Source: an uncultured Gammaproteobacteria bacterium (lineage in GTDB: Bacteria > Pseudomonadota > Gammaproteobacteria > PS1 > Pseudothioglobaceae). Taken from it: a stretch of 46,654 nucleotides of DNA. The stretch lies in contig CAJWTP010000007.1 of assembly GCA_913047325.1 (NCBI GenBank), positions 1-46,654 of the forward strand, written 5' to 3'. Under the pieces are notes generated by a model that did no database searches, was not told where the DNA came from, and worked only from the letters and a program-made list of their open reading frames with translations. The position numbers and the translations under genes were made by a program. Shown in pieces: positions 13,324-41,651 of this stretch. Within the stretch, counting starts at the first letter, position 1. Each line of letters begins with the position of its first letter.

Positions 13324-13905
13324 GTGCGACAAATCGCCGGCTATCTTTTGTTTTTTTGGCGTTATCGGTTAAAGTTAAAAGGCATCGAGAACCTTCCAAA
13401 GGCTGCCCCGGTGTTGCTTTTAGGGAATCATATTAGTTGGATAGATTTCGCTCTAATACAGTGGGCAACCCCAAGAACAATTCGATTTGTAGTGCACGAA
13501 GATTACTACAACATGCTAATTTTTAAGTGGGTTCTGATAGCCGTCGGTGCTGTTCCGATCAGACCATCAAACAGTCGCAATGCAATGCACAATATTGTGA
13601 GTCTATTAAACAAAAATTGTGTCGTTGGTATATTTCCTGAAGGGGAAATTTCTACCAATGGTGAATTGTCTGATTTGAAGAGGGGTTTTGAAAAGATATT
13701 GTCAGAATCAAGGGATGACGTCGTTATGGTCCCTTTTGCAATTAACAATATGTGGGGCACTTTTTTCTCAAAAGCACCAAAAGCAATCAAAAAGAAACAA
13801 AAGTTTTGCTTTAGAAGGGATATTCATATTAATGTTGGACCACCCCTAAATGCTAACGCAACCAGATCCGAAGTCAAGAAGTCTATTAGCGATTTACTCA
13901 TTTAA
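13324..13905 (+). CDS. 1-acyl-glycerol-phosphate acyltransferase family protein (PlsC-type)
   Basis: The 193-residue protein carries the acyltransferase motifs: GNHISWIDFALI (the HX4D catalytic box, near residue 36) and FPEGEIS (substrate binding, near residue 102). It transfers acyl groups to a lysophospholipid or lysophosphatidate. The start is GTG at 13324, 2 bases after the preceding transporter gene. Its similarity in setting to the acyltransferase domain of Aas suggests 2-acyl-lysophospholipid re-acylation; a PlsC role in de novo synthesis is the alternative. Confidence 0.82.
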   Translation: MRQIAGYLLFFWRYRLKLKGIENLPKAAPVLLLGNHISWIDFALIQWATPRTIRFVVHEDYYNMLIFKWVLIAVGAVPIRPSNSRNAMHNIVSLLNKNCVVGIFPEGEISTNGELSDLKRGFEKILSESRDDVVMVPFAINNMWGTFFSKAPKAIKKKQKFCFRRDIHINVGPPLNANATRSEVKKSISDLLI

Positions 13906-13956
13906 TGGTAATATCAGTTCTATTTTCAAAACAATAATTAATTAAAAGGTGGTGAT

Positions 13957-14565
13957 ATGAAAAAGATAATAGTAGTTGGTGCAACAGGCAAACTCGGCAA
14001 AGAGGTTGTTGAAGGCTTGGAAAAAGATTACGAAGTCATCCGTGCCGGACGCTCTGGCCCTGATCTCAAGCTAGATGCCCTTGATTTTTCAAGCGTCAGC
14101 GAAGTGTTTGCCACCGTCGGCACCTTCGATGGGTTGGTGTCTTGTATCGGTGGCACCCCTTTTAAGCCATTTGAGGAGCTTACCATGGAGGATTTTGCTG
14201 CCGGATTTTCGACCAAATGTTTGAGTCAATTAAATTTAGCAAAAGCAGCCATTCCGTTTCTAAGCGAGAACGGGTCAATCACATTAACAAGCGGCATTAT
14301 AGGTGACGAGCCTCTCCTTGCGGGAGCATGCGCCGCTGCCGCGAATGGCGCTCTGAATATGTGTGTATCGACTTTGGCTGCTGAGTATGCAGGCCAGCTA
14401 AGAATCAATATCGTATCGCCATCGATTATTGAAAATTCGGTAGATTATTACGGCATGCTCTTCGATGGCTATGAGCCAACCTCAAAAGAAAGCATCATTC
14501 ATGCATACAGGCGCACCATATCGGCACCAATTACCGGTCGAGTATTACGACTAACAAGGTCATAA
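13957..14565 (+). CDS. Short-chain dehydrogenase/reductase family protein
   Basis: A 202-residue Rossmann protein beginning KKIIVVGATGKLGKEVVEGL, the nucleotide-binding site. The serine segment SITLTSGIIG is present, but the usual YxxxK catalytic pair is not: the matching region reads AGACAAAANGALNM. This resembles the short SDR subgroup that lacks the tyrosine and lysine, so activity as a dehydrogenase is uncertain. The ribosome site AAGGTGGTGAT lies just before the ATG. It stands alone between the acyltransferase and the mttB-like gene. Confidence 0.75.
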   Translation: MKKIIVVGATGKLGKEVVEGLEKDYEVIRAGRSGPDLKLDALDFSSVSEVFATVGTFDGLVSCIGGTPFKPFEELTMEDFAAGFSTKCLSQLNLAKAAIPFLSENGSITLTSGIIGDEPLLAGACAAAANGALNMCVSTLAAEYAGQLRINIVSPSIIENSVDYYGMLFDGYEPTSKESIIHAYRRTISAPITGRVLRLTRS

Positions 14566-14636
14566 AGTAGAATTAAGAGTTTGTTCAAGCTAGCGGCTTC
14601 ATTGAAAATATCTCAACGAAATTCATTTAGATTATT

Positions 14637-14669
14637 CACTTGTTTTTACATATAGCTTGAATTAACATT
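14637..14669 (+). promoter_or_regulatory. Promoter element shared with the gene at 41685
   Basis: A 33-base stretch starting CACTTGTTTT and ending ATTAACATT matches 41619-41651 at 28 of 33 positions without gaps. Within it TTGTTT (14640-14645) and TAACAT (14663-14668) are 17 bases apart and conserved in both copies, so a sigma70-like promoter is plausible. The gene downstream starts 57 bases later. Confidence 0.55.
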
Positions 14670-14725
14670 CGTTTATTCCAGTGCTAATTAATTAATCATA
14701 TTCAGCATATTTTTTTGGAGACCGT

Positions 14726-16264
14726 ATGGCAGAAAATAAAAGGAGAAGGGGCGGAGGGCACTCTGCAAAGATTGCATATAGAGAACAATCCGCACAAATA
14801 GAAGCGCCAACATTTTTGTCGCGCAAAATTCCATGCTATGAATTGCTGAGCGAAGAGGAGTTGGTGCGTATCGAAGATCACGCGGACTGGATTCTTCAAG
14901 AGGTTGGCATTGAGTTTTGGGATGATGAAGAGTCGATAAAACTATTCAAGGATGCAGGTGCAACCGTTAAAGGAAACAGAATATATTTTGACAAGGGACA
15001 CCCTCTAGAATTATGCAAGACTGCTCCGAGGGAGTTTGAAATGCATGCAAGAAATCCTAAAAGGTCAACGATATTTGGGGGCAACAGATTGATTTTTGGT
15101 CCGGCATACGGTTCCCCTTTTGTTTACGATTTAAGGGGAGGCAGAAGGCAGGGCAAGATGGAGGATTTTGACAATCTAGTCAAACTTGCACACATGACTC
15201 CCTGGCTCCATCATACCAGTGGAACTGTTTGTGAGCCCGTTGACATTGCTGTTAATAAGCGCCATTTAGATATGGTTTATGCCCACTTAATTTATTCTGA
15301 CAAGCCCTTTATGGGGTCCGTCACTGCACCTGAGCGCGCTGAGGATTCGATTGAAATGGCGCGGATTGTTTTTGGTGAAGAGTGTATGGAATCAGGCTGT
15401 GTAATCCAGGGAAACATAAATGTTAACTCACCTCTGGTGTATGACAAAACCATGACTGGAGCATTAAAAACCTATGCAAGGGCCAATCAAGGTGTCGTAA
15501 TCACGCCGTTTATTCTCGGTGGGGCGATGTCGCCGGTTACAATGCCGGCTGCTGTCGCTCAAGCGCATGCCGAAACTATGGTGGGTGTCGCCTTAACACA
15601 ATTGATTCGTCCTGGCTCGAGCGCTGTGTATGGTAATTTCTTAACGACCATGGACCTCAAGTCGGGAGCGCCAACTTTTGGCACCCCTGAATCCTCTTTG
15701 GCAACCTTGGCGGTTGGACAAATGGCTAGGAGGTTAGGATTGCCTTTCAGGGCTGGCGGTCATTACACAGCTTCCAAGGTGACTGACGCGCAAGCTATGC
15801 AGGAGTCGGCGGACTCAATGTTTCCGGCATTTTTAGCCGGCGCTAATTTTATCCATCAGGCCGCAGGCTGGTTGGAAGGCGGTTTGGTGGTTGGCTATGA
15901 GAAATTTATTCTTGATTCAGAGCGACTCGGCATTCTTCATCGAATGGGCGATGGAATGGTCATCAATGACAACTCTTTGGCTTTTAGTGCTTATCGTGAA
16001 AACTCTCCAGGGGAGAACTTTTTGGGCACAGAACATACCAGTGAAAACTTTGAGAATGCTAATTTTCGCTCAGAGATGGCTGACAATAATTCTTTTGAGC
16101 AGTGGTCAGAGGACGGCTCCAAAAATGCTGAAGAGCGTGCCTATGAGAAATGGAATAAAATGCTCGTTGAATATGAGCAGCCACCCATTGACCCAGCAAT
16201 AGATGAGGAATTAAAAGACTTTATTCGGCAAAAGAAGGACAGTATGGATGATGAGTGGTATTAA
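14726..16264 (+). CDS. MttB-family corrinoid methyltransferase, non-pyrrolysine (glycine betaine methyltransferase-like)
   Basis: This 512-residue protein belongs to the trimethylamine methyltransferase (MttB) superfamily, which moves a methyl group from a quaternary or tertiary amine to a corrinoid protein. The typical C-terminal segment TASKVTDAQAMQESADSM, followed by AGANFIHQAAGWLEGGL, is near residues 345-390. The frame has no in-frame amber codon, so it is a non-pyrrolysine member; characterized members of that type demethylate glycine betaine or related compounds. The N-terminus is basic (KRRRGGGHSAK). The carnitine genes, which would yield glycine betaine, lie tail-to-tail with it. No corrinoid protein is adjacent; the nearest is at 35002. 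The substrate is inferred. Confidence 0.82.
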   Translation: MAENKRRRGGGHSAKIAYREQSAQIEAPTFLSRKIPCYELLSEEELVRIEDHADWILQEVGIEFWDDEESIKLFKDAGATVKGNRIYFDKGHPLELCKTAPREFEMHARNPKRSTIFGGNRLIFGPAYGSPFVYDLRGGRRQGKMEDFDNLVKLAHMTPWLHHTSGTVCEPVDIAVNKRHLDMVYAHLIYSDKPFMGSVTAPERAEDSIEMARIVFGEECMESGCVIQGNINVNSPLVYDKTMTGALKTYARANQGVVITPFILGGAMSPVTMPAAVAQAHAETMVGVALTQLIRPGSSAVYGNFLTTMDLKSGAPTFGTPESSLATLAVGQMARRLGLPFRAGGHYTASKVTDAQAMQESADSMFPAFLAGANFIHQAAGWLEGGLVVGYEKFILDSERLGILHRMGDGMVINDNSLAFSAYRENSPGENFLGTEHTSENFENANFRSEMADNNSFEQWSEDGSKNAEERAYEKWNKMLVEYEQPPIDPAIDEELKDFIRQKKDSMDDEWY

Positions 16265-17740: not shown

Positions 17741-18652
17741 TTATCCCCAGCGTTTAACTAGTTTCATTTTGTCGCGCACGTCTTGTGGCCCCATAATGCT
17801 ACAGCCCATTCCTTGTGCGGTTTGTACAGCATTCTCAACCAGCTCTTCGTTGGTTGCAAGGACGCCACGTTTGAGATAGATGTTATCCTCAAGCCCGACA
17901 CGGATGTTGCCACCAGCTAGAACCGCCAAGGCAACATAAGGCAGTTGATTCCTGCTAATTGAGAAGGCTGAAAATGTCCAGTCCTTAGGGACATTTGACG
18001 TCATTGCGAGAAATGTATGGAGATCATCAGGTGCACCCCAGGGTATACCCATACAGAGCTGAATCATCACAGGGTCATCAATCAAACCTTGCTCTTTAAG
18101 CCAAATTGCAAACTGCAAATGACCGGTATCGAAAGCCTCAATTTCAGGTTTAACTCCGAGCGCTTGAACTTGTCTTGTCATTTCTTGCAATACTGAAGTG
18201 GTGTTGGTCATAACGTAATCACCTTGGCCAAAATTCATGGAGCCACAGTCAATGGTACATATCTCAGGAAGTATATTTGTGACATGTTCAAGTCGCTCTG
18301 TTGCGCCAACCATATCGGTTTCTTTGTCATTCAATGCCAGTGGTTCTTCAGCAGAACCAAAAACCATGTCACCACCCATCCCAGTGGTTAGATTCAAAAC
18401 CATATCAACCTTCGACTCTTTAATTAAATTAACAACCTCTACATAAAGAGCCGGGTCACGAGCAGGTGCGCCTGTTTTTGGATCTCTAACGTGGATGTGA
18501 ACAACGGCGGCGCCTGCCTGAGCTGCGCCAATGCAAGAGTCTGCAATTTGCTGAGGCGTAATGGGTATCTTGTCGGATCTCCCTGTCGTGTCTCCAGAAC
18601 CTGTAACTGCGCAAGTAATAAATACATCTCTCGATGGCTGTAGGCTTATCAT
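17741..18652 (-). CDS. BKACE family enzyme (DUF849), probable dehydrocarnitine cleavage enzyme
   Basis: BKACE proteins cleave beta-keto acids with acetyl-CoA. Next to a carnitine dehydrogenase the reaction is very likely 3-dehydrocarnitine plus acetyl-CoA to betainyl-CoA plus acetoacetate. The metal site HIHVRDPKTGAPARDP is visible near residue 47, with the FDTGHLQFA and CMGIPWG segments further on. I use ATG 18652 (303 residues) because GGAG lies 8 bases upstream and the following ITCAVTGSGDTTGRS is the family N-terminus; a longer frame to 18730 would add an unlikely extension. The thioesterase-dehydrogenase gene follows after 1 base. Confidence 0.87.
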   Translation of the reverse strand: MISLQPSRDVFITCAVTGSGDTTGRSDKIPITPQQIADSCIGAAQAGAAVVHIHVRDPKTGAPARDPALYVEVVNLIKESKVDMVLNLTTGMGGDMVFGSAEEPLALNDKETDMVGATERLEHVTNILPEICTIDCGSMNFGQGDYVMTNTTSVLQEMTRQVQALGVKPEIEAFDTGHLQFAIWLKEQGLIDDPVMIQLCMGIPWGAPDDLHTFLAMTSNVPKDWTFSAFSISRNQLPYVALAVLAGGNIRVGLEDNIYLKRGVLATNEELVENAVQTAQGMGCSIMGPQDVRDKMKLVKRWG

Positions 18653-30451: not shown

Positions 30452-31681
30452 ATGTTAAATAAGAAGATAGCATTTGCTATAACATTTGCAGCCCTCTCTT
30501 CTAGTGTTTGGGCAGGTTGTGGTATCGACGGAGGACGTGTTAGTATCGTTGGTAATGAATTTCCTGCAATTCAAGCAGTAGGATCAGCGGCAGCAGAATG
30601 CGCAGGTGGTGGTGTTGAGGTTACGAAAAATTTGACCGCAGACCATCAAAAAATAAATGTCCAAGGTATGACCGGCAACCCGGCAGAATATACAACAGCA
30701 ATAATTGCTAATTCATCTATTGTTGCATTAATGGTCGATGATGTCATAAGACCATTAGATGACCTTGTTGCTAAGCATGGGCAAGATATACAGAAACATC
30801 AGTTAGTAACTGTGGATGGCAATATAATGGCTGTAGCCTTTATGGCTAATGCTCAGCACTTGGTTTTCCGTGCTGACATACTTGCAGAAGCTGGCCTAAA
30901 TCCACCAACAACATATGAAGAGATGTTGGTTGCTGCGGCAATAATCCGTGATATGGGTTTAATGCAGAATCCAGTTGGTGGCGCTTACAAGGCGGGCTGG
31001 AATATAGCTGAAGAATTTGTAAACATGTACATTGGACATGGTGGTGAATTCTTTGAGCCAGGTACAGCTAAAGTTTCAATTAACAACCAAGCTGGTGTCG
31101 ATGCATTACACATGATGAAAGCATTGTCTCACTTTATGAACCCTGACTACCTTACACATGATTCAAATGCAACTAGTGCTGAATGGAAAGCAGGTAACGT
31201 TGCTATTATGAATATGTGGGGATCACGTGTTGGTCCACTTAAGAGTGATGAAGTAGCGGCAGAAGTAGCTAGTAATACAGATATAGCTGGACCTATGACT
31301 GTTGGCGGTGGCTCTATTCCGGCTGCAACACTTTGGTGGGATGGTTGGACTGTAGCCAAGAATATTTCTGACGAAGATGCTGAGGCAACATTCCTTGCAA
31401 TGAAGCACGCGGTTCGTCCTGAAATGTTGAATGATGAAACTTCACTTCTAGCTGTATGGTTGATCAAAGGTTATGAGCCAACTACTGCATCTCGTGGTGT
31501 AGTTGCTGCAGCTCAAATGGGCACAAAACCATATCCGATGGTGTCTTATCAAGGTCTACTACATTCAGCGTTAGGTGCTGAGATAATTGACTTTATGATG
31601 GGCAAGGAAGATGCGGCTACTGCTCTAGCTGATGTAGAAGCGGCATATACAGCAGCTGCGAAAGAAAAAGGTTACCTATAA
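30452..31681 (+). CDS. ABC transporter extracellular solute-binding protein (sugar-type)
   Basis: A 409-residue periplasmic binding protein. The signal peptide (NKKIAFAITFAALSSSVWA) is followed by a likely signal-peptidase I site; the adjacent cysteine does not sit in a good lipobox. The mature part resembles carbohydrate-binding proteins of the MalE/UgpB group (segments MANAQHLVFRADILAEAGL and IMNMWGSRVGPL). It is separated from the permeases by a strong hairpin, so it can be made in excess. The ligand is unknown; it should be the compound degraded by the cluster enzymes. Confidence 0.88.
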   Translation: MLNKKIAFAITFAALSSSVWAGCGIDGGRVSIVGNEFPAIQAVGSAAAECAGGGVEVTKNLTADHQKINVQGMTGNPAEYTTAIIANSSIVALMVDDVIRPLDDLVAKHGQDIQKHQLVTVDGNIMAVAFMANAQHLVFRADILAEAGLNPPTTYEEMLVAAAIIRDMGLMQNPVGGAYKAGWNIAEEFVNMYIGHGGEFFEPGTAKVSINNQAGVDALHMMKALSHFMNPDYLTHDSNATSAEWKAGNVAIMNMWGSRVGPLKSDEVAAEVASNTDIAGPMTVGGGSIPAATLWWDGWTVAKNISDEDAEATFLAMKHAVRPEMLNDETSLLAVWLIKGYEPTTASRGVVAAAQMGTKPYPMVSYQGLLHSALGAEIIDFMMGKEDAATALADVEAAYTAAAKEKGYL

Positions 31682-34751: not shown

Positions 34752-34767
34752 TTGCATACGAATGCAA
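34752..34767. promoter_or_regulatory. LacI-type operator in front of the ATPase relic
   Basis: TTGCATACGAATGCAA is identical to the site at 19764, and the bases before it (TTAGAATTATTT) match as well. The second operator expected 54 bp downstream is degenerate (only TTGCAAT remains at 34803). The site belongs to a copied promoter region. Confidence 0.75.
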
Positions 34768-34770
34768 AAC

Positions 34771-34812
34771 TTGATTTACATCAAGACAAATATTGTTTAA
34801 TCTTGCAATAAT
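34771..34812 (+). promoter_or_regulatory. FNR-type promoter upstream of the corrinoid protein gene
   Basis: TTGATTTACATCAA (34771-34784) matches the FNR/ANR consensus TTGAT-N4-ATCAA perfectly. AATAAT (34807-34812) begins 29.5 bp from the center of the box, the spacing of a class II promoter with the activator at -41.5. The same geometry recurs at 36897 and 41426. Confidence 0.7.
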
Positions 34813-34878
34813 AACTCCTAATGAAAGCTTGGCTTGAGAATCTAATGCCGCGTTTTGCTGTCTTACTCTGAGAGATAT

Positions 34879-34965
34879 TTAGCTGAAATTCAATTAAAAA
34901 ATCTGACCAAGCACTGGGGTAGTTTTGGTGGCTCAGAGAGCTTTAATTTGACTATTGCTGACTAA
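34879..34965 (+). pseudogene. Truncated 5' relic of a second ABC transporter ATPase gene
   Basis: The first 84 bases match the start of the ATPase gene at 19879 closely ([15 protein letters not shown], then a diverged GGSESFNLTIAD). The initiating TTG has become TTA, and similarity stops at 34962, where an in-frame TAA follows at once. The upstream AGAGA ribosome-site region and the operator at 34752 are also copied. It cannot encode a working ATPase and marks the left edge of the 35-41.5 kb island. Confidence 0.9.
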
Positions 34966-35001
34966 GCCACAAAGTTGTGTTTATGAATAGGAATTTGATA
35001 A

Positions 35002-35631
35002 ATGGATTATTTAGATAACATTTATGAAGCCATACTAGATGGCGATATGGGAATCGTTCCCACAAATGTCCAATCCGCCCTTGATGCTGGCATTTCAGTC
35101 TCTGATATTCTTGTCGAAGGCATGATTGCCGCAATGGAAGAAGTTGGACGCCTATTTCAAGAAGGCGAATACTTTGTCCCTGAGATGTTGTTAGCAGCGC
35201 ATTCAATGAAGGCCGGGATATCTGTTTTGCAGCCGCATCTAGTCAACTCTGGTGTCGAGCCGATTGGCAAAGTTGTCCTCGGAAGTGTTGAGGGTGACAT
35301 GCACGATATTGGAAAAAATCTTGTGGCGATGATGCTGGAAGGAGTTGGATTTCAGATAGTCGATTTAGGCACAGATGTTAGTGCCGCACAGTTTGTAGAA
35401 GCTGTTAAAGAAGGCGCTGATATTCTTGGGCTATCCGCTTTGTTGACTACAACACTGCCTAGTATGGAAAGTACGATTCGGGCAATTGAAGCAGCGGGAT
35501 TACGAGAGGACGTTAAGATTATTGTTGGTGGTGCGCCCGTAACGGCAGATTATGCTCATCAAATTGGTGCAGATGGTTATGCAAAAGATGCGAGCCAGGC
35601 AGTGAAGGTAGCAAAATCTTTTATTAATTGA
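35002..35631 (+). CDS. Corrinoid (B12-binding) methyl-carrier protein, MtbC/MttC type
   Basis: The 209-residue protein has a helical cap domain with GEYFVPEMLLAA (residues 56-67), then a B12-binding domain with the ligand motif GDMHDIGKNL (D99, H101, G104), the LSALLTT segment and VGGAPVT. Such proteins carry methyl groups between a substrate-specific methyltransferase and an acceptor methyltransferase. The UroD-family gene follows after 15 bases. The mttB-like gene at 14726 has no other corrinoid partner in the window. Expression is predicted from the FNR-type promoter at 34771, with a leader of about 180 bases spanning the ATPase relic. Confidence 0.92.
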   Translation: MDYLDNIYEAILDGDMGIVPTNVQSALDAGISVSDILVEGMIAAMEEVGRLFQEGEYFVPEMLLAAHSMKAGISVLQPHLVNSGVEPIGKVVLGSVEGDMHDIGKNLVAMMLEGVGFQIVDLGTDVSAAQFVEAVKEGADILGLSALLTTTLPSMESTIRAIEAAGLREDVKIIVGGAPVTADYAHQIGADGYAKDASQAVKVAKSFIN

Positions 35632-35646
35632 ATAGGGAACGTAGCC

Positions 35647-36849
35647 ATGACGATGACACCACGAGAGAATTTTTTCACGGCAATAGGTCACCAGCAGCCA
35701 GAGCGGGTTCTGGTTGATATGGGTAAACATATTGGCTCTATTCATAAGAAAGCCTACGTAAAACTGCAGCACTACCTCAACGATGTGCCCATGGAAAATG
35801 CGGATAAAATACTGGACCGTATGGCACAGACAGTGGTTCCTGACGAGGCACTACTGCAGCGTTTTGGCATCGATTTCCGATGGCTGGTCCCCAACTGGGT
35901 ACAGGTCAAGGAACGCACTGATGTGGATGGTTATATTGACATGTGGGGCGTGCCTTATCGTGCAACAGCGGACCAGGATCATTACGCAATTGATGTACTC
36001 TGTGATGCGCCCTTAAAAACAGCTACCCTGAAGAATCTGGATGATTTTAACTGGCCCGACCCGTATGACCCAGATCAATTCAAGGGGTTGCGTGAACAGG
36101 CCAAGAACCTGTATGAAAACACCGACTACGTTATCGGGGCAGATGCCATCAAAGCCGGTCCCCTGATGACAGCCCTGCAAATGCGAGGCTATGAACAGTT
36201 CTTTATGGATCTGATTGCTGATACTGAATTTGCTGATGCACTGCTGGATAAGATCACCTGGACCCTGAAAGCAATGTGGACCCGCTATATGGAAGAGGTA
36301 GGGCCATATGTTCAGCTTGCTTATGTTACGGATGATTTGGGTTCCCAGACCTCAATGTTGATATCGCCAAAAGTATTTCGCAACCGTCTCAAGCCGAAGA
36401 TGAAAGAGCTGCATGACCATATCAAGGGTCTGGCAGACGTGAAGTTGATGATGCATACAGATGGAGCAGTGTTACCGGTCATTGAAGATATTATCGAAAT
36501 GAATGTGGACATCATCAACCCGGTACAGACCTCGGTTCAGGGTATGGACAATACCCAAGCCCTCAAGCAACAGTTTGGTGATCGACTTGCCTTTCACGGG
36601 GCGATAGATGTACAGCAGTTAATGCCCAATGCCAGCCTTGATCAGCTGCGCTGGGAGGTAGCAAAGAGGATTCATGACCTTGGTCGTAATGGGGGCTATA
36701 TCATTGCACCCTGTCACAATATTGGGTATGACATTTCACCCCAAAATATGGTGACTTTTTTTGACCTGGTAAAACAGTTCGGCGCCTATCCACTGGCGCT
36801 TGATGAAGTTCTTGCCAGCAACCAATCCTACTTTACCAATAACAGCTGA
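35647..36849 (+). CDS. UroD-family corrinoid methyltransferase (MtbA/MtaA superfamily)
   Basis: The 400-residue protein belongs to the uroporphyrinogen decarboxylase superfamily branch used by corrinoid methyltransferases, not to true HemE. The first part of the metal site reads MMHTDGAV (H270, D272), where MtaA-type enzymes have H-x-C; a later cysteine is in APCHNIG (C356). It may move methyl groups from the corrinoid protein to an acceptor, or from an unknown methylated donor to it. ATG 35647 and 35653 are both possible. Base composition is richer in G+C than the preceding host-like genes. Confidence 0.83.
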   Translation: MTMTPRENFFTAIGHQQPERVLVDMGKHIGSIHKKAYVKLQHYLNDVPMENADKILDRMAQTVVPDEALLQRFGIDFRWLVPNWVQVKERTDVDGYIDMWGVPYRATADQDHYAIDVLCDAPLKTATLKNLDDFNWPDPYDPDQFKGLREQAKNLYENTDYVIGADAIKAGPLMTALQMRGYEQFFMDLIADTEFADALLDKITWTLKAMWTRYMEEVGPYVQLAYVTDDLGSQTSMLISPKVFRNRLKPKMKELHDHIKGLADVKLMMHTDGAVLPVIEDIIEMNVDIINPVQTSVQGMDNTQALKQQFGDRLAFHGAIDVQQLMPNASLDQLRWEVAKRIHDLGRNGGYIIAPCHNIGYDISPQNMVTFFDLVKQFGAYPLALDEVLASNQSYFTNNS

Positions 36850-36896
36850 GCAAAGGTTGTGATAGCAGTCAATGTTTAAATGGAGATATCAATGGA

Positions 36897-36938
36897 TTGA
36901 TACAGGTCAATTATTTGTATACCACATACAAATATAAT
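36897..36938 (+). promoter_or_regulatory. FNR-type promoter upstream of the LVIVD gene
   Basis: TTGATACAGGTCAA (36897-36910) matches the FNR consensus at 9 of 10 defined bases. A perfect TATAAT (36933-36938) begins 29.5 bp from its center, which puts the box at -41.5. It drives the short leader frame and the LVIVD gene. Confidence 0.72.
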
Positions 36939-36995
36939 TATTTTTATAACAATATTGAAAAAAATATAATAACTAATAGGAAAGAGGAGAATTTA

Positions 36996-37064
36996 ATGTT
37001 TATTAAAAAAAATATAACTTTAATAGCAATTTTGCTTATTTCAACTAATGCAGGAGAACAATGA
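36996..37064 (+). CDS. 22-residue signal-peptide-only leader ORF
   Basis: From ATG 36996, with GAGGAG just upstream, the frame reads MFIKKNITLIAILLISTNA then GEQ and a TGA. It is a textbook export signal with a cleavage-like site and no mature protein. Its TGA overlaps the ATG of the LVIVD gene, and its end supplies the AGGAG ribosome site for that gene. It is strongly A+T-rich while the next gene is not, so it looks like the severed 5' end of another exported protein's gene. It could still act through translational coupling. Confidence 0.6.
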   Translation: MFIKKNITLIAILLISTNAGEQ

Positions 37065-38314
37065 TGTCCAGTCCTAGTCTTCTCACTCCGGATTTTTCCC
37101 GTAACATGCACATACTCGGTCACTCAGACCAGGGTGGTCGAGCCGACGGTATCCAGGTCATGGTTTCAGGAGGATATGCCTACGTCGGGCATGTATTCAA
37201 TAACGGCTTTTCGGTAATCGATGTACGAGACCCGAAGAAGCCGACATTCGTGCGCCATATACCCCAACCAGCAGGCACCTGGAGCCAGCATTTACAAACC
37301 CATGGCGATATTCTTATCGTCAACAACATGCGTGATATGCTGCAGGCCGAGAACATCGATGCGGGGGAATATTACCAGGGCTCAATTGGCGACAAGATTT
37401 CTCTTGACACTCCCGAGCAGGGTTATTCTGCCGGTATGCGGGTTTACGATATTTCTGATCGTGCCAATCCACGCGAAATTGCTTTCATGGAAGTACCGGG
37501 GCTGGGCGTTCACCGTGTCTGGTACGACGGTGGCAACTGGGCCTATATCTCAGCCCTGCCGCCCGGATTCAGTGACGATATTTTCATGATTGTCGACTTT
37601 AAGAACCCCGAAAATCCCGAGGTGGTAAGCAAGTTGTGGCTTCCTGGAATGAACAGCGCAGCCGGAGAAACTCCAGCCTGGGATGCAAAATACCGCTACG
37701 CGCTGCACCATGCCATCATCAAGGGCGATCTTGCCTGCGGTGCCTGGCGCGACGGTGGCGTCACTACGATGGATGTCAGTGACCGTTACAACCCGGTTAT
37801 CCTGGCACATGATAACCCCTGCCCTCCTTTTTCCGGCGGTACCCATAACACGCTGCCCATCCCGGATCGCAACCTGCTATTCGTGGTTGAGGAATCGGTA
37901 TTTGATAATTGCGAAGATGGTATCAAGCACAACTGGGTATACGACATCAGCAATCCGGCAAATCCTGTAACCATCGCCACCACCCCGATTCCGGACGAGA
38001 TGGATTATCAGGCCAAGGGCGGACAATTCGGCCCGCACAATGTACATGAAAATCGTAGTGAGGGATTCCAGAGTTCCGAGCTGATGTTTGTCAGTTATCA
38101 GAACGCAGGGATCAGAGTCTACGACATTTCCAACCCCTACCGCCCTGAAGAAGTTGCTGCGCTGGTACCACCTGCGCCTCAAAAGCTGATGGATTATCGC
38201 CCCGCCCGCCCGTTGGTTGTTGATACTACCGATGTTTACGTCGATAAACAGGGGCTGATTTACACCACCGACATGAATGCTGGACTTTACATCATAGAAA
38301 TGGAGAATCTCTAA
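37064..38314 (+). CDS. LVIVD-repeat beta-propeller-like protein
   Basis: The protein of about 417 residues is made of LVIVD-type repeats, visible as GYAYVGHVFNNGFSVIDVRD, AGMRVYDISDRANPREIAFM, WAYISALPPG, GVTTMDVSDRYNPV and GIRVYDISNPYRPEEVAAL. Such repeats form propeller-like surface or periplasmic domains of unknown role. I prefer the ATG at 37064 to that at 37061 because AGGAG is 7 bases upstream of it. It has no signal peptide of its own; the leader just upstream is out of frame. The stop overlaps the next start (TAATG). Composition is G+C-richer than the flanks. Confidence 0.78.
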   Translation: MSSPSLLTPDFSRNMHILGHSDQGGRADGIQVMVSGGYAYVGHVFNNGFSVIDVRDPKKPTFVRHIPQPAGTWSQHLQTHGDILIVNNMRDMLQAENIDAGEYYQGSIGDKISLDTPEQGYSAGMRVYDISDRANPREIAFMEVPGLGVHRVWYDGGNWAYISALPPGFSDDIFMIVDFKNPENPEVVSKLWLPGMNSAAGETPAWDAKYRYALHHAIIKGDLACGAWRDGGVTTMDVSDRYNPVILAHDNPCPPFSGGTHNTLPIPDRNLLFVVEESVFDNCEDGIKHNWVYDISNPANPVTIATTPIPDEMDYQAKGGQFGPHNVHENRSEGFQSSELMFVSYQNAGIRVYDISNPYRPEEVAALVPPAPQKLMDYRPARPLVVDTTDVYVDKQGLIYTTDMNAGLYIIEMENL

Positions 38315-39300
38315 TGAGTCGGGTTCTGATTGTGGGGAAAATCCATCCAAAGGGTCTCGCCATTCTTGAGGCTGAGGACGGGCTGGAGATCGAGATGATC
38401 ACTGACCCGGATGCAGAGCTATCGAAGGAAAAACTGGCGACGACGGATGCCTTGCTGATTCGCTATGGAAAAATCAGTGAAGCCGACGCTGAACAAATGC
38501 CAAATCTGCGTATCGTATCGCGCCATGGCGTGGGTTGCGACAACCTGCCGGTAGCAGCTCTAGGTGCCCGCGGCGTGCCGGTGACCATTGTCGGACCGGT
38601 CACCGCGGGGTCGGTCGCCGAGCAGGTGATGGCGATGTTGATGGCACTGATCAAAAAAATCGCCCTTTACGATGCTGCGGTACGCAAAGGCGACTGGGGC
38701 ATTCGTGACTCACTACAGGTCGGAGAATTGGCAGGCCGAACCTTGATGATTCTGGGCTTTGGGCGTATCGGGCGCGAGGTTGCACGCCGGGCATTGGCTT
38801 TTGACATGAAGGTTGCAATCCATGATCCTTTCGTCAGTGCCGATGAAATCCAGGCCGCGGGATATCAGGCAGTCGAGGATTGGCGAGCAACACTGCCCGA
38901 GATGGATGTGATAAGCCTGCATCTGCCTATGACAGCGGAAACCAGGGGCTTGATTGGTGCTGGGGAAATCGCTGCGATGAAATCAACCGCCATCCTGATC
39001 AACGCTGCTCGCGGCGGACTGGTAGATGAAGAGGCGCTCTATACCGCCCTGACTGGACCTATGTCCCGCGGTGGCGCCGGGATGGACTGTTTCGACAGCG
39101 AGCCACCGACCCCGGATCAACCGCTATTGAGCTTGCCTAATGTAGTGCTCAGCCCTCATTCTGCCTCGCTAAGCGAAGAGGCCGCACAACGTATGGGAAT
39201 TGTGGCAGCACAAAACATCTTAGACGGTTTGCATGGCAAACTTAAAGCGGAACTGGTTTTCAACCTGAAGGCATTGCAAGAGGCCGGACATGAGTTATGA
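38314..39300 (+). CDS. D-isomer-specific 2-hydroxyacid dehydrogenase
   Basis: A 328-residue NAD-dependent dehydrogenase of the D-2-hydroxyacid family. The cofactor motif GFGRIGREV is near residue 149. The catalytic arginine is in INAARGGLVDE, the acidic residue in DCFDSEPP and the histidine in LSPHSASLS. Substrates could be D-3-phosphoglycerate, a hydroxypyruvate or another 2-hydroxyacid. It overlaps the preceding and following genes by 1 and 11 bases, and is part of the G+C-rich three-gene block. Confidence 0.87.
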   Translation: MSRVLIVGKIHPKGLAILEAEDGLEIEMITDPDAELSKEKLATTDALLIRYGKISEADAEQMPNLRIVSRHGVGCDNLPVAALGARGVPVTIVGPVTAGSVAEQVMAMLMALIKKIALYDAAVRKGDWGIRDSLQVGELAGRTLMILGFGRIGREVARRALAFDMKVAIHDPFVSADEIQAAGYQAVEDWRATLPEMDVISLHLPMTAETRGLIGAGEIAAMKSTAILINAARGGLVDEEALYTALTGPMSRGGAGMDCFDSEPPTPDQPLLSLPNVVLSPHSASLSEEAAQRMGIVAAQNILDGLHGKLKAELVFNLKALQEAGHEL

Positions 39301-40012
39301 GATTCCGACCGCGAAGTATATCGACTTTCTTGACAAAACCATCGAGATCCACTGGGATTATCATGCCCTGCTGATGTTTGGCATCTGGTTTGTGCTGATA
39401 CCAGCTGCGCTATTATTCATCCGTTTCGGCAAACCTAAACCAACCACCTACGGCATCCCGCTCGGTATCAGCCGGTTCGACCGCAGGCTTTTGTGGTGGA
39501 CGCTGCATTACAGCTTACTTTACCTTGCTATTGCTCTGTCGATTGCCGGGGCTTTGATTGCAATCTGGTTAAGCGGGGGTTTTAGCGGTACGTTACACGC
39601 TTGGTTTGGAAGCGGCACCATCCTGTTGGGTACGCTACAAATTATATCTGCCTGGTTTCGCGGTAGCCATGGCGGAAAGCACGGTGCAGAATCCGATCCG
39701 CAAGACCGTTCAACTTGGAGTGGGGATCATTTTGACATGACCGCAAAACGGCGCTGGTTTGAGGTTTATCATAAAACTGCGGGGTATATCGTAATCGTAA
39801 TGGCTGTTGGCACGGCCGCCTCAGGACTATGGCAATTCTGGATGCCGGGGATTGCTATCGCCTTTATCCTAGTGATGATTGTGGTATTGATTCTGGCCAC
39901 GGCGCTACAGGCTTATGGATTAAATGTTGATACTTACCAGTCAGTATACGGCAACCATCCGGACCATCCTTTCAACAAGAGACGCAGTTCTAAAGGACAA
40001 AGTCCTGACTGA
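39290..40012 (+). CDS. Cytochrome b561-type membrane protein
   Basis: A 240-residue protein with about five membrane segments. Histidines in WDYHALLMFGIW, WWTLHYSLLYL, TLHAWFGSG and YHKTAGYIVIVM are placed as in b561-type two-heme electron carriers. Such proteins pass electrons across the membrane, often with a partner domain outside. With the LVIVD protein and the dehydrogenase it may form an oxidoreductase path, which is inference from the operon only. The C-terminal tail is hydrophilic and charged. Confidence 0.75.
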   Translation: MSYEIPTAKYIDFLDKTIEIHWDYHALLMFGIWFVLIPAALLFIRFGKPKPTTYGIPLGISRFDRRLLWWTLHYSLLYLAIALSIAGALIAIWLSGGFSGTLHAWFGSGTILLGTLQIISAWFRGSHGGKHGAESDPQDRSTWSGDHFDMTAKRRWFEVYHKTAGYIVIVMAVGTAASGLWQFWMPGIAIAFILVMIVVLILATALQAYGLNVDTYQSVYGNHPDHPFNKRRSSKGQSPD

Positions 40013-40081
40013 AGTCATCAGAGTGCAGATTTAATATACGCAGAAATCAATGAAGATCACCCCGAGCTTAGCCACATCGCT

Positions 40082-40843
40082 TTATTTATCCATTACTGCT
40101 TTCAACTCTGTTGCCAGTGCAGATTTCAACAAATTCGCATCGCTATTAGGCACCACAAAATCGAAACCTTGCGTAGCACGTTGGGCAGCGACCTTACCAG
40201 AGGGACAAAAGATACCAGCGTGTTTTCCAGCAGCTTTGGCCCTCTTCAGACAATAATCAATAGAATCACGCACCTCGGCATCTATTGGATCTAAAACTGA
40301 ACCTTTACCCAAACTCAATCCCAAATCCGCAGGTCCGATGAATATACCATCGAGTCCGTCTACGGCACAGATTTCATCGATGGCAGCTAGTCCTTCGTTT
40401 GTTTCGATCATGGCTAAACAAACAACCGTTTTATTAGCGTATTGAGCATAATCAGAACCGCCATAGAGCAGACCACGGGCCGGCCCAAAGCTACGTTGGC
40501 CTATGGGTGGGTATGAAGCGGCATTAACCAGTACTCGTGCGTCATCTGCCGAATTCACCATCGGGCAGATAACCCCATAACTGCCAGCATCGAGTGCTTT
40601 CATGATGACACTAGGTTCAGCGTTAGGAACCCGCACAAAAGGTGTAGCAGGTGTAGTCGAAATGGCCTGTAACATAACTATCATGTCTGAGATATCAGTC
40701 ATTCCATGCTGCAGGTCGATGGTCACACAATCAACTCCACTCATGCCGACAATTTCGGCGCTGTAACTATTGCCTATTGACAACCAGCCAGAAATGGCGG
40801 CTCGTCCTTCTGCCCAGCATGTAAGCACATTATTTGATCGCAT
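40082..40843 (-). CDS. HpcH/HpaI-family class II aldolase
   Basis: The 253-residue protein belongs to the HpcH/HpaI aldolase/citrate lyase family. Typical segments are VTIDLQHGMTD, PFVRVPN, AMIETNEGLAAIDEI with the metal-binding glutamate, and IFIGPADLGLSLG with the metal-binding aspartate. Such enzymes split 4-hydroxy-2-oxo acids to pyruvate and an aldehyde. It lies 41 bases after the VOC gene on the minus strand and converges on the cytochrome gene. The ribosome site is weak. The specific substrate is unknown. Confidence 0.88.
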   Translation of the reverse strand: MRSNNVLTCWAEGRAAISGWLSIGNSYSAEIVGMSGVDCVTIDLQHGMTDISDMIVMLQAISTTPATPFVRVPNAEPSVIMKALDAGSYGVICPMVNSADDARVLVNAASYPPIGQRSFGPARGLLYGGSDYAQYANKTVVCLAMIETNEGLAAIDEICAVDGLDGIFIGPADLGLSLGKGSVLDPIDAEVRDSIDYCLKRAKAAGKHAGIFCPSGKVAAQRATQGFDFVVPNSDANLLKSALATELKAVMDK

Positions 40844-40884
40844 TTTAGCTTCGAAAAGTTAAAGAATTTGTCAAGCTTCGACTA

Positions 40885-41355
40885 TCATACAGGACTGGTC
40901 GGGCTGCCTTCACGCCATTCTGGGACGCCACTGTTTAAGATTAAATCACGAATTGTTTCTAACTTGAATGAATTCAAATCTGCCTCTTCTTCTGGGGCAA
41001 ACTGGATTTCAATATGGTTACCATCCGGATCGAAGATATGGATCTGGCGAATTTCAACATCAGGCACCACAGCAACATGGTAAGGAACTTCATTATCGCG
41101 AAGGTGCTCCAAAAGTTCGGCCATCCTAGATGCACTGAAGGCAACGTGTTCTATCTGGGTATCCTGCACCTTGGGAGGGCTTTCTAGCTCTACCAGGTGT
41201 ACTACCGGAGTTTCACCACAGTACAGCCAGGTTCCGGTTGAAGTGAATGGCGGACGCAGTCCAGCCGTTAATCCCAGTATCCGCGAATAAAAATCCTTTA
41301 AAACTTGGTGATTAACAGTCAGCAGGGTGACATGATTCAGGCCTTCGAGCGGCAT
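40885..41355 (-). CDS. VOC-family protein (glyoxalase/dioxygenase fold)
   Basis: A 156-residue vicinal-oxygen-chelate protein. The metal-site positions are in GLNHVTLLT, IEHVAF and GNHIEIQF. Start 41355 (MPLEGLNHV) is preferred to 41370 because AGGAG lies between the two ATGs at the right distance. It precedes the aldolase gene and is likely its operon partner. A metal-dependent isomerase, lyase or dioxygenase role is possible. Confidence 0.8.
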   Translation of the reverse strand: MPLEGLNHVTLLTVNHQVLKDFYSRILGLTAGLRPPFTSTGTWLYCGETPVVHLVELESPPKVQDTQIEHVAFSASRMAELLEHLRDNEVPYHVAVVPDVEIRQIHIFDPDGNHIEIQFAPEEEADLNSFKLETIRDLILNSGVPEWREGSPTSPV

Positions 41356-41397
41356 GGTGGTACTCCTCATATAGGTTATTGAGTTTCATTACGAAGT

Positions 41398-41439
41398 ATT
41401 ATTGCAATATCAAATAATATGTATCTTGATGTAGGTCAA
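41398..41439 (-). promoter_or_regulatory. FNR-type promoter of the VOC-aldolase genes
   Basis: TTGATGTAGGTCAA (41426-41439) is an FNR-type box with 9 of 10 matches. On the minus strand AATAAT (41403-41398) begins 29.5 bp from its center. On the plus strand TAAAAT (41462-41467) sits at the same distance, so the box could also serve the direction of the gene at 41685. Confidence 0.6.
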
Positions 41440-41454
41440 TTATTGCAAAATATG

Positions 41455-41500
41455 TCCATCTTAAAATAATATATCCATCTTAAATACATATAGCCATATA
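41455..41500. repeat. Short 19-bp tandem repeat
   Basis: Two 19-base units (41455-41473 and 41474-41492) both start TCCATCTTAAA and end ATATA, followed by a partial third copy starting GCCATATA. It leads straight into the gene debris at 41493. Confidence 0.6.
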
Positions 41501-41561
41501 CCGCAACCCGCAGGCACCTGGAATCAAAAAAAGAATCGATATTTTGGCGCGAATTAAATAA
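41493..41561 (+). pseudogene. Chimeric gene debris: LVIVD fragment joined to a SnoaL-like C-terminal fragment
   Basis: Bases 41493-41522 match 37254-37283 of the LVIVD gene at 28 of 30 positions and read HIPQPAGTW; both differences are synonymous. From 41518 the sequence runs TGGAATCAA, a run of seven A (41526-41532), then codes DILAR before a TAA at 41559-41561. WNQ and DILAR match the C-terminal end of the SnoaL-like protein at 33706. The two parts join at a shared tryptophan codon region and are shifted in frame by one base. It is the right edge of the island. Confidence 0.7.
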
Positions 41562-41618
41562 AATGTCAAAAAATTAAGTTTAATAGAAAATATTTCAAAA
41601 AAAATTATTAATATTTTT

Positions 41619-41651
41619 CACTTGTTTTACCAAATAGTTTGGATTAACATT
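41619..41651 (+). promoter_or_regulatory. Promoter element shared with the mttB-like gene
   Basis: This 33-base element matches 14637-14669 at 28 positions. TTGTTT (41622-41627) and TAACAT (41645-41650) are 17 bases apart. The start codon of the dehydrogenase follows 34 bases later. Confidence 0.55.

Follow-up and report, generated by a model that had tools for sequence, protein, structure and literature searches.

Why does a short reading frame encoding an export-signal-like peptide stand directly before the gene for an LVIVD-repeat protein, and what, if anything, does it do there? The first-pass annotation of this window (the whole stretch of 46,654 nucleotides analysed) left a choice between a severed host gene start that now gives translational coupling and a functional leader peptide.

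The leader reading frame

36996-37064, + strand: leader reading frame, 22 codons and TGA; open reading frame with signal-like peptide and ribosome site
36985-36989, + strand: leader Shine-Dalgarno AGGAG, read from the sequence

The leader peptide is MFIKKNITLIAILLISTNAGEQ, with its ATG at 36996, sense codons over 36996-37061 and TGA at 37062-37064. Its ribosome site, GAAAGAGGAG, lies 6 nt 5′ of the ATG, so that the frame is a short ORF translatable from a ribosome site of its own, as is looked for in a coupled upstream ORF. Among dinucleotide-preserving shuffles of 36946-37050 joined to the real tail, 14 of 20,000 gave a comparable frame (15 codons or more up to that TGA, with a signal-like peptide and a Shine-Dalgarno core), and 7 of 20,000 did so when an ATG start and a cleavage-like site were added. 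The hydrophobic core scores 3.39, more than in any other of the 15 short signal-like frames listed for the window, the next being 2.77. The clean 22-codon export signal with its own ribosome site that had been annotated here is thus present and rare in shuffles, and the shuffle counts, together with the similarity to substrate-binding-protein genes described below, rule out a chance frame as the main explanation. The annotated break in composition is likewise real: GC content rises from 0.16 (36896-36969) and 0.20 (36970-37050) to 0.47 (37051-37110) and 0.54 (37111-37300).

Origin of the leader

36975-37050, + strand: putative captured 5′ end of an ABC substrate-binding-protein gene, taking in its ribosome site and first 18 codons; alignments to L058, L078 and L059

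The alignments identify the leader as the start of a gene for an ABC-transporter substrate-binding protein (SBP), severed from the rest of that gene. Searching 83 genomes of the order with the leader peptide returned four weak matches besides the leader itself (E 0.13 to 0.66), one of which, in genome G073 (E 0.41), corresponds to the beginning of a PF01547 protein of 402 residues. With this protein as query 24 matches were obtained, and 21 of them were compared (the fragments L076, L077 and L081 were left out). Anchored at the ATG, the leader is identical to this G073 gene (L053/L058) at 43 of 57 bases, to a second G073 gene (L078) at 41 of 57 and to a gene of G012 (L059) at 40 of 57, the latter two being relatives of the first-matched gene and not independent evidence. 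The three further genes of this six-member group agree at 29/57 bases each, the other 15 SBP genes at 29-33 of 57, and among 216 distinct host gene starts compared the maximum outside SBP genes is 29/57.

Local alignments, which take in the Shine-Dalgarno sequence, score 66 for L058, 57 for L078 and 46 for L059, each equalled in 0 of 2,000 shuffles, counts that overstate the significance because the first SBP match was picked by a peptide search at a poor E-value of 0.41. The best of these alignments reaches 37050, leaving 10 bases to the LVIVD ATG. When about 510 kb of host DNA was scanned on both strands, the SBP starts came out on top and other places scored at most 36, apart from L010 (45), L009 (42) and another stretch of the L059 start (37); L007 (58) is a piece of the leader's own locus. 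Reading L009 and L010, which are short DNA matches to the leader, brought no leader-like gene start to light. Descent from an SBP gene is made persuasive by how far the scores stand apart and by the match falling on the same start codon.

The severed host gene start of the first-pass annotation is accordingly upheld, in that the leader aligns from its Shine-Dalgarno sequence to 37050 with SBP starts of related genomes. That annotation would have counted itself refuted by homologues whose leader runs on into an unrelated gene; the SBP genes are such homologues, and they support its severed start and refute its functional leader. Between the leader and its SBP relatives 14-17 of 57 bases differ, distributed over the three codon positions as 4, 6 and 4 in the comparison with L058, and differences at all codon positions speak against a conserved function of the peptide, which is itself most likely without function.

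The window's own SBP gene (30452-31681) was rejected as the source, agreeing at 29/57 bases with 177 of 2,000 shuffles doing equally well. The rest of the matching SBP gene was not found in the leader's own genome (about 90% complete), where the only gene recovered at E ≤ 1e-30 was that of the window, belonging to another group (43%).

The inserted block

36896-40874, no strand assigned: extra block of 3,979 bp, missing from G018 of the same genus, where the flanks adjoin
40082-40843, − strand: HpcH/HpaI aldolase gene within the block (PF03328)

The G018 contig (L029) aligns to window positions 34923-36895 and then straight to 40875-41465, and because the alignment passes directly between the flanks, 36896-40874 is an extra block here relative to G018. 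G018 is only about 70% complete; its contig nonetheless runs through the empty site. Judged by sequence, the block is a mosaic of a promoter from the same genome, an SBP start and then a foreign operon, and we infer the order of events in its assembly. The aldolase of the block differs from the aldolases that precede LVIVD in homologous loci (29-33% identity).

Beyond the block, L029 carries a trimethylamine-methyltransferase (MTTB) gene at 13861-15525 where the window has a short spacer (41465-41610) between glyoxalase and DAO/GCV_T genes. Within the spacer that precedes the DAO/GCV_T oxidoreductase gene (41685), thirty bases at 41493-41522 are 93% identical to 37254-37283 of the LVIVD gene and may be read as a relic or partial copy of an LVIVD gene. 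A 64-base spacer repeat occurs in inverted orientation at 34763-34826 and 41384-41447 (81%), and 41580-41651 resembles 14598-14669 (79%); spacer modules seem to have been copied about in this genome.

The promoter module

36896-36969, + strand: predicted promoter module, 87% identical to contig 34 of the own genome (G000), 18514-18587
36897-36910, + strand: FNR/ANR-like box TTGATACAGGTCAA, pattern match
36913-36933, + strand: operator-like palindrome ATTTGTAT-N5-ATACAAAT, 8-base arms, 0 mismatches
36933-36938, + strand: TATAAT, candidate -10 element

The contig 34 copy of the module stands before a GntR/FCD regulator gene and also contains the palindrome, and the similarity opens at the insertion edge. 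It ends at 36969, so that the GntR locus was rejected as the source of the leader beyond that point. The candidate regulator of the box is one that we take to be FNR/ANR; in this genome the box pattern is enriched, with 42 strand matches compared with 6 for the reversed pattern. FNR-activated promoters follow a rule of spacing between box and start point. With an assumed start point near 36945, the centre of the box lies 41.5 nt away, and the TTGATNNNNRTCAA box and TATAAT are spaced as would fit a putative FNR/ANR-type promoter (about -41.5), from which the leader and LVIVD may be transcribed.

A promoter common to the relatives' GntR genes was considered and rejected: 17 of 18 GntR loci carry TGTCGACA, and the FNR-like box occurs only in the eighteenth, the own copy. 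Since the relatives' GntR genes bear a different operator-like site, the promoter is particular to this genome. No such module was seen before the SBP genes. In the window, FNR/ANR-like boxes lie in spacers before several catabolic genes (34771-34784, 36897-36910 and 41426-41439).

The LVIVD operon

37061-38314, + strand: LVIVD-repeat protein, 417 aa, by similarity foreign; PF08309, 73-83% identity to 15 loci
38314-39300, + strand: D-2-hydroxyacid dehydrogenase of the putative foreign operon; PF02826 and PF00389, adjoining LVIVD in 15/15 loci
39290-40012, + strand: membrane protein, 240 aa, of the putative foreign operon, in 15/15 loci

The distribution and affinities of these genes show, at the level of sequence, an operon of LVIVD, dehydrogenase and membrane protein that was horizontally acquired and has alphaproteobacterial affinity. 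Fourteen of 15 LVIVD relatives bear alphaproteobacterial titles, the other being titled only Pseudomonadota; the alphaproteobacterial loci are mostly of Rhodobacteraceae in the wide sense, and also of Rhizobiaceae, Roseibium and Geminicoccaceae. In the LVIVD tree, the window row joins a Geminicoccaceae row with moderate support (83/78). At E ≤ 1e-20 the other 82 genomes of the order hold no LVIVD protein (1/83, the own genome); at E ≤ 0.001 two of 58 relatives have a match, the own genome included and the other weak (E 1.4e-4), and at E ≤ 1e-40 two of 369 genomes of the class do, the own genome and one at 40%. No LVIVD relative was found in viral contigs. The GC3 of the gene (0.576) lies below that of all 15 homologues (0.62-0.96).

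The absence of a signal on the LVIVD protein, noted in the first-pass annotation, was confirmed, and the accompanying hint that the protein needs one proved wrong for its family: the window protein has no signal peptide, and none of the 15 homologues has a signal peptide or an N-terminal extension (0/15). LVIVD has therefore lost nothing. The leader as a lost or required signal peptide of LVIVD was rejected on this ground and because the two frames differ.

LVIVD (37061-38314) is predicted to fold as a beta-propeller; among solved structures it is best matched by the phosphotriesterase of Sphingobium sp. TCM1 (5hrm; E 1.2e-15, TM 0.68, 16% identity). The membrane protein (39290-40012) has no Pfam match, and its fold weakly resembles cytochrome b561 (E 0.15). 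The set of LVIVD, 2-hydroxyacid dehydrogenase and membrane protein is conserved in 15/15 of the homologous loci (L012-L026), near which stand a full-length UROD-type methyltransferase (12/15), an aldolase (12/15) and a corrinoid protein (11/15). A narrow literature search found no described function for this conserved set, nor any paper dealing with the LVIVD operon or with a borrowed operon that is preceded by a severed signal-peptide start.

The junction between leader and LVIVD

37051-37066, + strand: LVIVD ribosome site and stop-start overlap ATGATG; comparable CAGGAG...ATGATG in Ruegeria marina (L014)

As had been annotated, the leader TGA overlaps the LVIVD ATG (37061-37063); the two have two bases in common, forming ATGA at 37061-37064. 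A second ATG at 37064 makes TGATG with the leader stop, and with either start the stop lies at or near the downstream start, as in coupled upstream ORFs. LVIVD also has an AGGAG of its own at 37052-37056, with 4 nt between it and the first ATG and 7 nt to the second. Leader and LVIVD are read in different frames.

Twelve homologous loci have an aldolase gene upstream of LVIVD, and in 7 of them its stop and the LVIVD start overlap in the same way; an eighth overlap, in L019, was left out, as its frame was not confirmed as an aldolase. The aldolase C-termini (AGEPQ-stop, TTGET-stop and others) are similar to the leader's AGEQ-stop, a likeness that is suggestive only, because the same bases form the Shine-Dalgarno sequence. 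From 37051 on the bases look donor-like, and the last leader codons may be descended from a donor gene. Alignment and overlap thus show the two ends of the leader, its homology to an SBP start and its stop within the LVIVD start. As for the annotated proposal that a severed start gives coupling, the severed start stands, and coupling is plausible, with the same overlap seen in those seven loci; translational coupling from leader to LVIVD is what we infer.

Most probable explanation and its rivals

We consider it probable that the region is a chimeric relic, in which a promoter of the genome's own and an SBP start were joined to an acquired operon and the leader hands ribosomes to LVIVD. The promoter module and the SBP ribosome site with its 18 codons would have been joined just 5′ of the LVIVD ribosome site. 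On a transcript that probably begins near 36945, ribosomes would load at 36985, read 22 codons and terminate at 37062, and the terminating ribosome, assisted by AGGAG at 37052, would restart at one of the two LVIVD ATGs, 37061 or 37064. The captured piece would in this way supply both transcription and ribosome loading. Several points count against this explanation: LVIVD has its own Shine-Dalgarno sequence and could perhaps do without the leader; half of the six genes in the SBP group agree with the leader at only 29/57 bases, and the own genome has no gene of that group; and L024, the nearest LVIVD relative, has no stop-start overlap.

A possible alternative, to which we give clearly less weight, is that the SBP-derived leader is inert, LVIVD being translated from AGGAG at 37052 and only the promoter mattering. 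The short distance from this site to the two LVIVD ATGs is in its favour, as is an RNA fold that does not hide the site unusually (MFE -23.1 compared with a shuffle mean of -21.8, z -0.34, from a single fold computation). Against it, the frame is still open to the LVIVD start despite its base differences from the SBP relatives, and the leader Shine-Dalgarno sequence is strong; ribosomes translating the leader must finish on the LVIVD start.

It is unlikely, taking the proposal as a whole, that UROD, aldolase and the LVIVD, dehydrogenase and membrane protein genes arrived in one transfer as they stand in Rhodobacteraceae, the promoter and leader later replacing the aldolase and G018 losing the remainder; the mechanism of the leader would be unchanged. 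The order of UROD, an intervening element, LVIVD, dehydrogenase and membrane protein matches the homologous loci, the GC3 of the window UROD (0.525) is raised like that of LVIVD, and the leader stop lies in the phase of the aldolase stop. What disfavours one transfer of UROD and LVIVD is that the window UROD shares 64-68% identity with 12 full-length URODs of homologous loci, below the 72.5-88% found among those 12 (66 pairs), while the window LVIVD and dehydrogenase fall within the corresponding ranges. The UROD gene is moreover common to G018, at 92%, being present in 2 of 29 genomes of the genus, the own genome included. We favour a later, separate arrival of the LVIVD, dehydrogenase and membrane protein genes, as these identities suggest; a faster-evolving UROD in this host would look alike.

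A regulatory leader peptide, whose signal-like sequence would control LVIVD expression by stalling or by engaging Sec, is very improbable. A translatable signal-like peptide does stand immediately before the gene, but no second copy was found in the 83 genomes of the order beyond the weak matches, 77 of 200 shuffles fold as well as the leader RNA, and descent from an SBP start accounts for the peptide. An attenuator or stalling leader was also rejected, there being no fold signal over the downstream ribosome site. The functional leader peptide of the first-pass annotation is accordingly not borne out, having neither a conserved copy nor a special fold, and differing from the SBP genes at all three codon positions.

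We give equally little credence to a misjoining of the block or its 5′ junction in a metagenome-type assembly. The assembly is in 93 contigs and about 90% complete, which would allow it, but two false joins would be needed where the flanks continue as in G018, the promoter module belongs to this genome, and the GC3 of LVIVD (0.58) is below that of every homologue. Hardly more credible is that the captured signal start would be retained as an address label on the mRNA, the nascent signal peptide drawing the polysome to the membrane; if true, LVIVD, the dehydrogenase and the multi-pass membrane protein would be made and assembled there. Least likely of all is a sequencing error separating what is really one frame, with LVIVD exported by the leader signal: a single extra base within 37049-37060 would fuse the frames and upstream of its ATG the LVIVD frame stays open for no more than four codons, but none of the 15 homologues has a signal or extension, the ribosome site and ATG at the junction resemble those of homologous loci, and 37049-37060 holds no long homopolymer.

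On the chimeric explanation that we prefer, the locus offers a near base-by-base view of how a foreign operon is wired into a small host genome, by a resident promoter, a severed start giving a ribosome site and an overlap as in donor-type loci. It also raises the question of whether acquired operons outside integrons make use of captured gene starts as landing sites for ribosomes. For annotators, such a frame is not to be taken for the signal peptide of the downstream protein.

Comparison with known systems

The closest known counterpart is ORF-11 of attI1 in class 1 integrons, which, according to PMC8876359, raises translation of a captured gene by coupling, its peptide being unimportant. 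Like ORF-11 (and ORF-17 and ORF-18 of attI1), the leader is a short frame that precedes a captured foreign gene and carries a ribosome site of its own, and like ORF-11 it ends at or near the start of the downstream gene. Unlike ORF-11, the leader is a severed gene start, with no integron or recombination site noticed around it, and coupling, demonstrated for ORF-11, is here deduced. By analogy the leader would act like ORF-11, to which we liken it in mechanism only, without classing it as a member.

The same ATGA overlap is found in the alphaproteobacterial operons of UROD, HpcH, LVIVD, dehydrogenase and membrane protein (7/12 loci with a confirmed aldolase frame). Unlike the junction of aldolase and LVIVD in those operons, a signal-peptide start here takes the place of the aldolase. 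The leader has the ribosome site in common with the starts of the SBP_bac_1 genes L058, L078 and L059, and agrees with them at 40-43 of the first 57 bases. Unlike in those genes, the rest is gone, and what follows is four codons and a stop belonging to the LVIVD ribosome site. The locus also resembles known cases of termination-reinitiation coupling in its -4 nt spacing (NTGA) and in having a short ORF able to deliver ribosomes; PMC12548453 describes the -4 spacing as the commonest and as efficient for translational coupling, and notes that short ORFs serving only ribosome delivery have been proposed. Set beside these systems, the leader is an ordinary result of acquiring genes that happens to be unusually easy to read, and no new kind of system.
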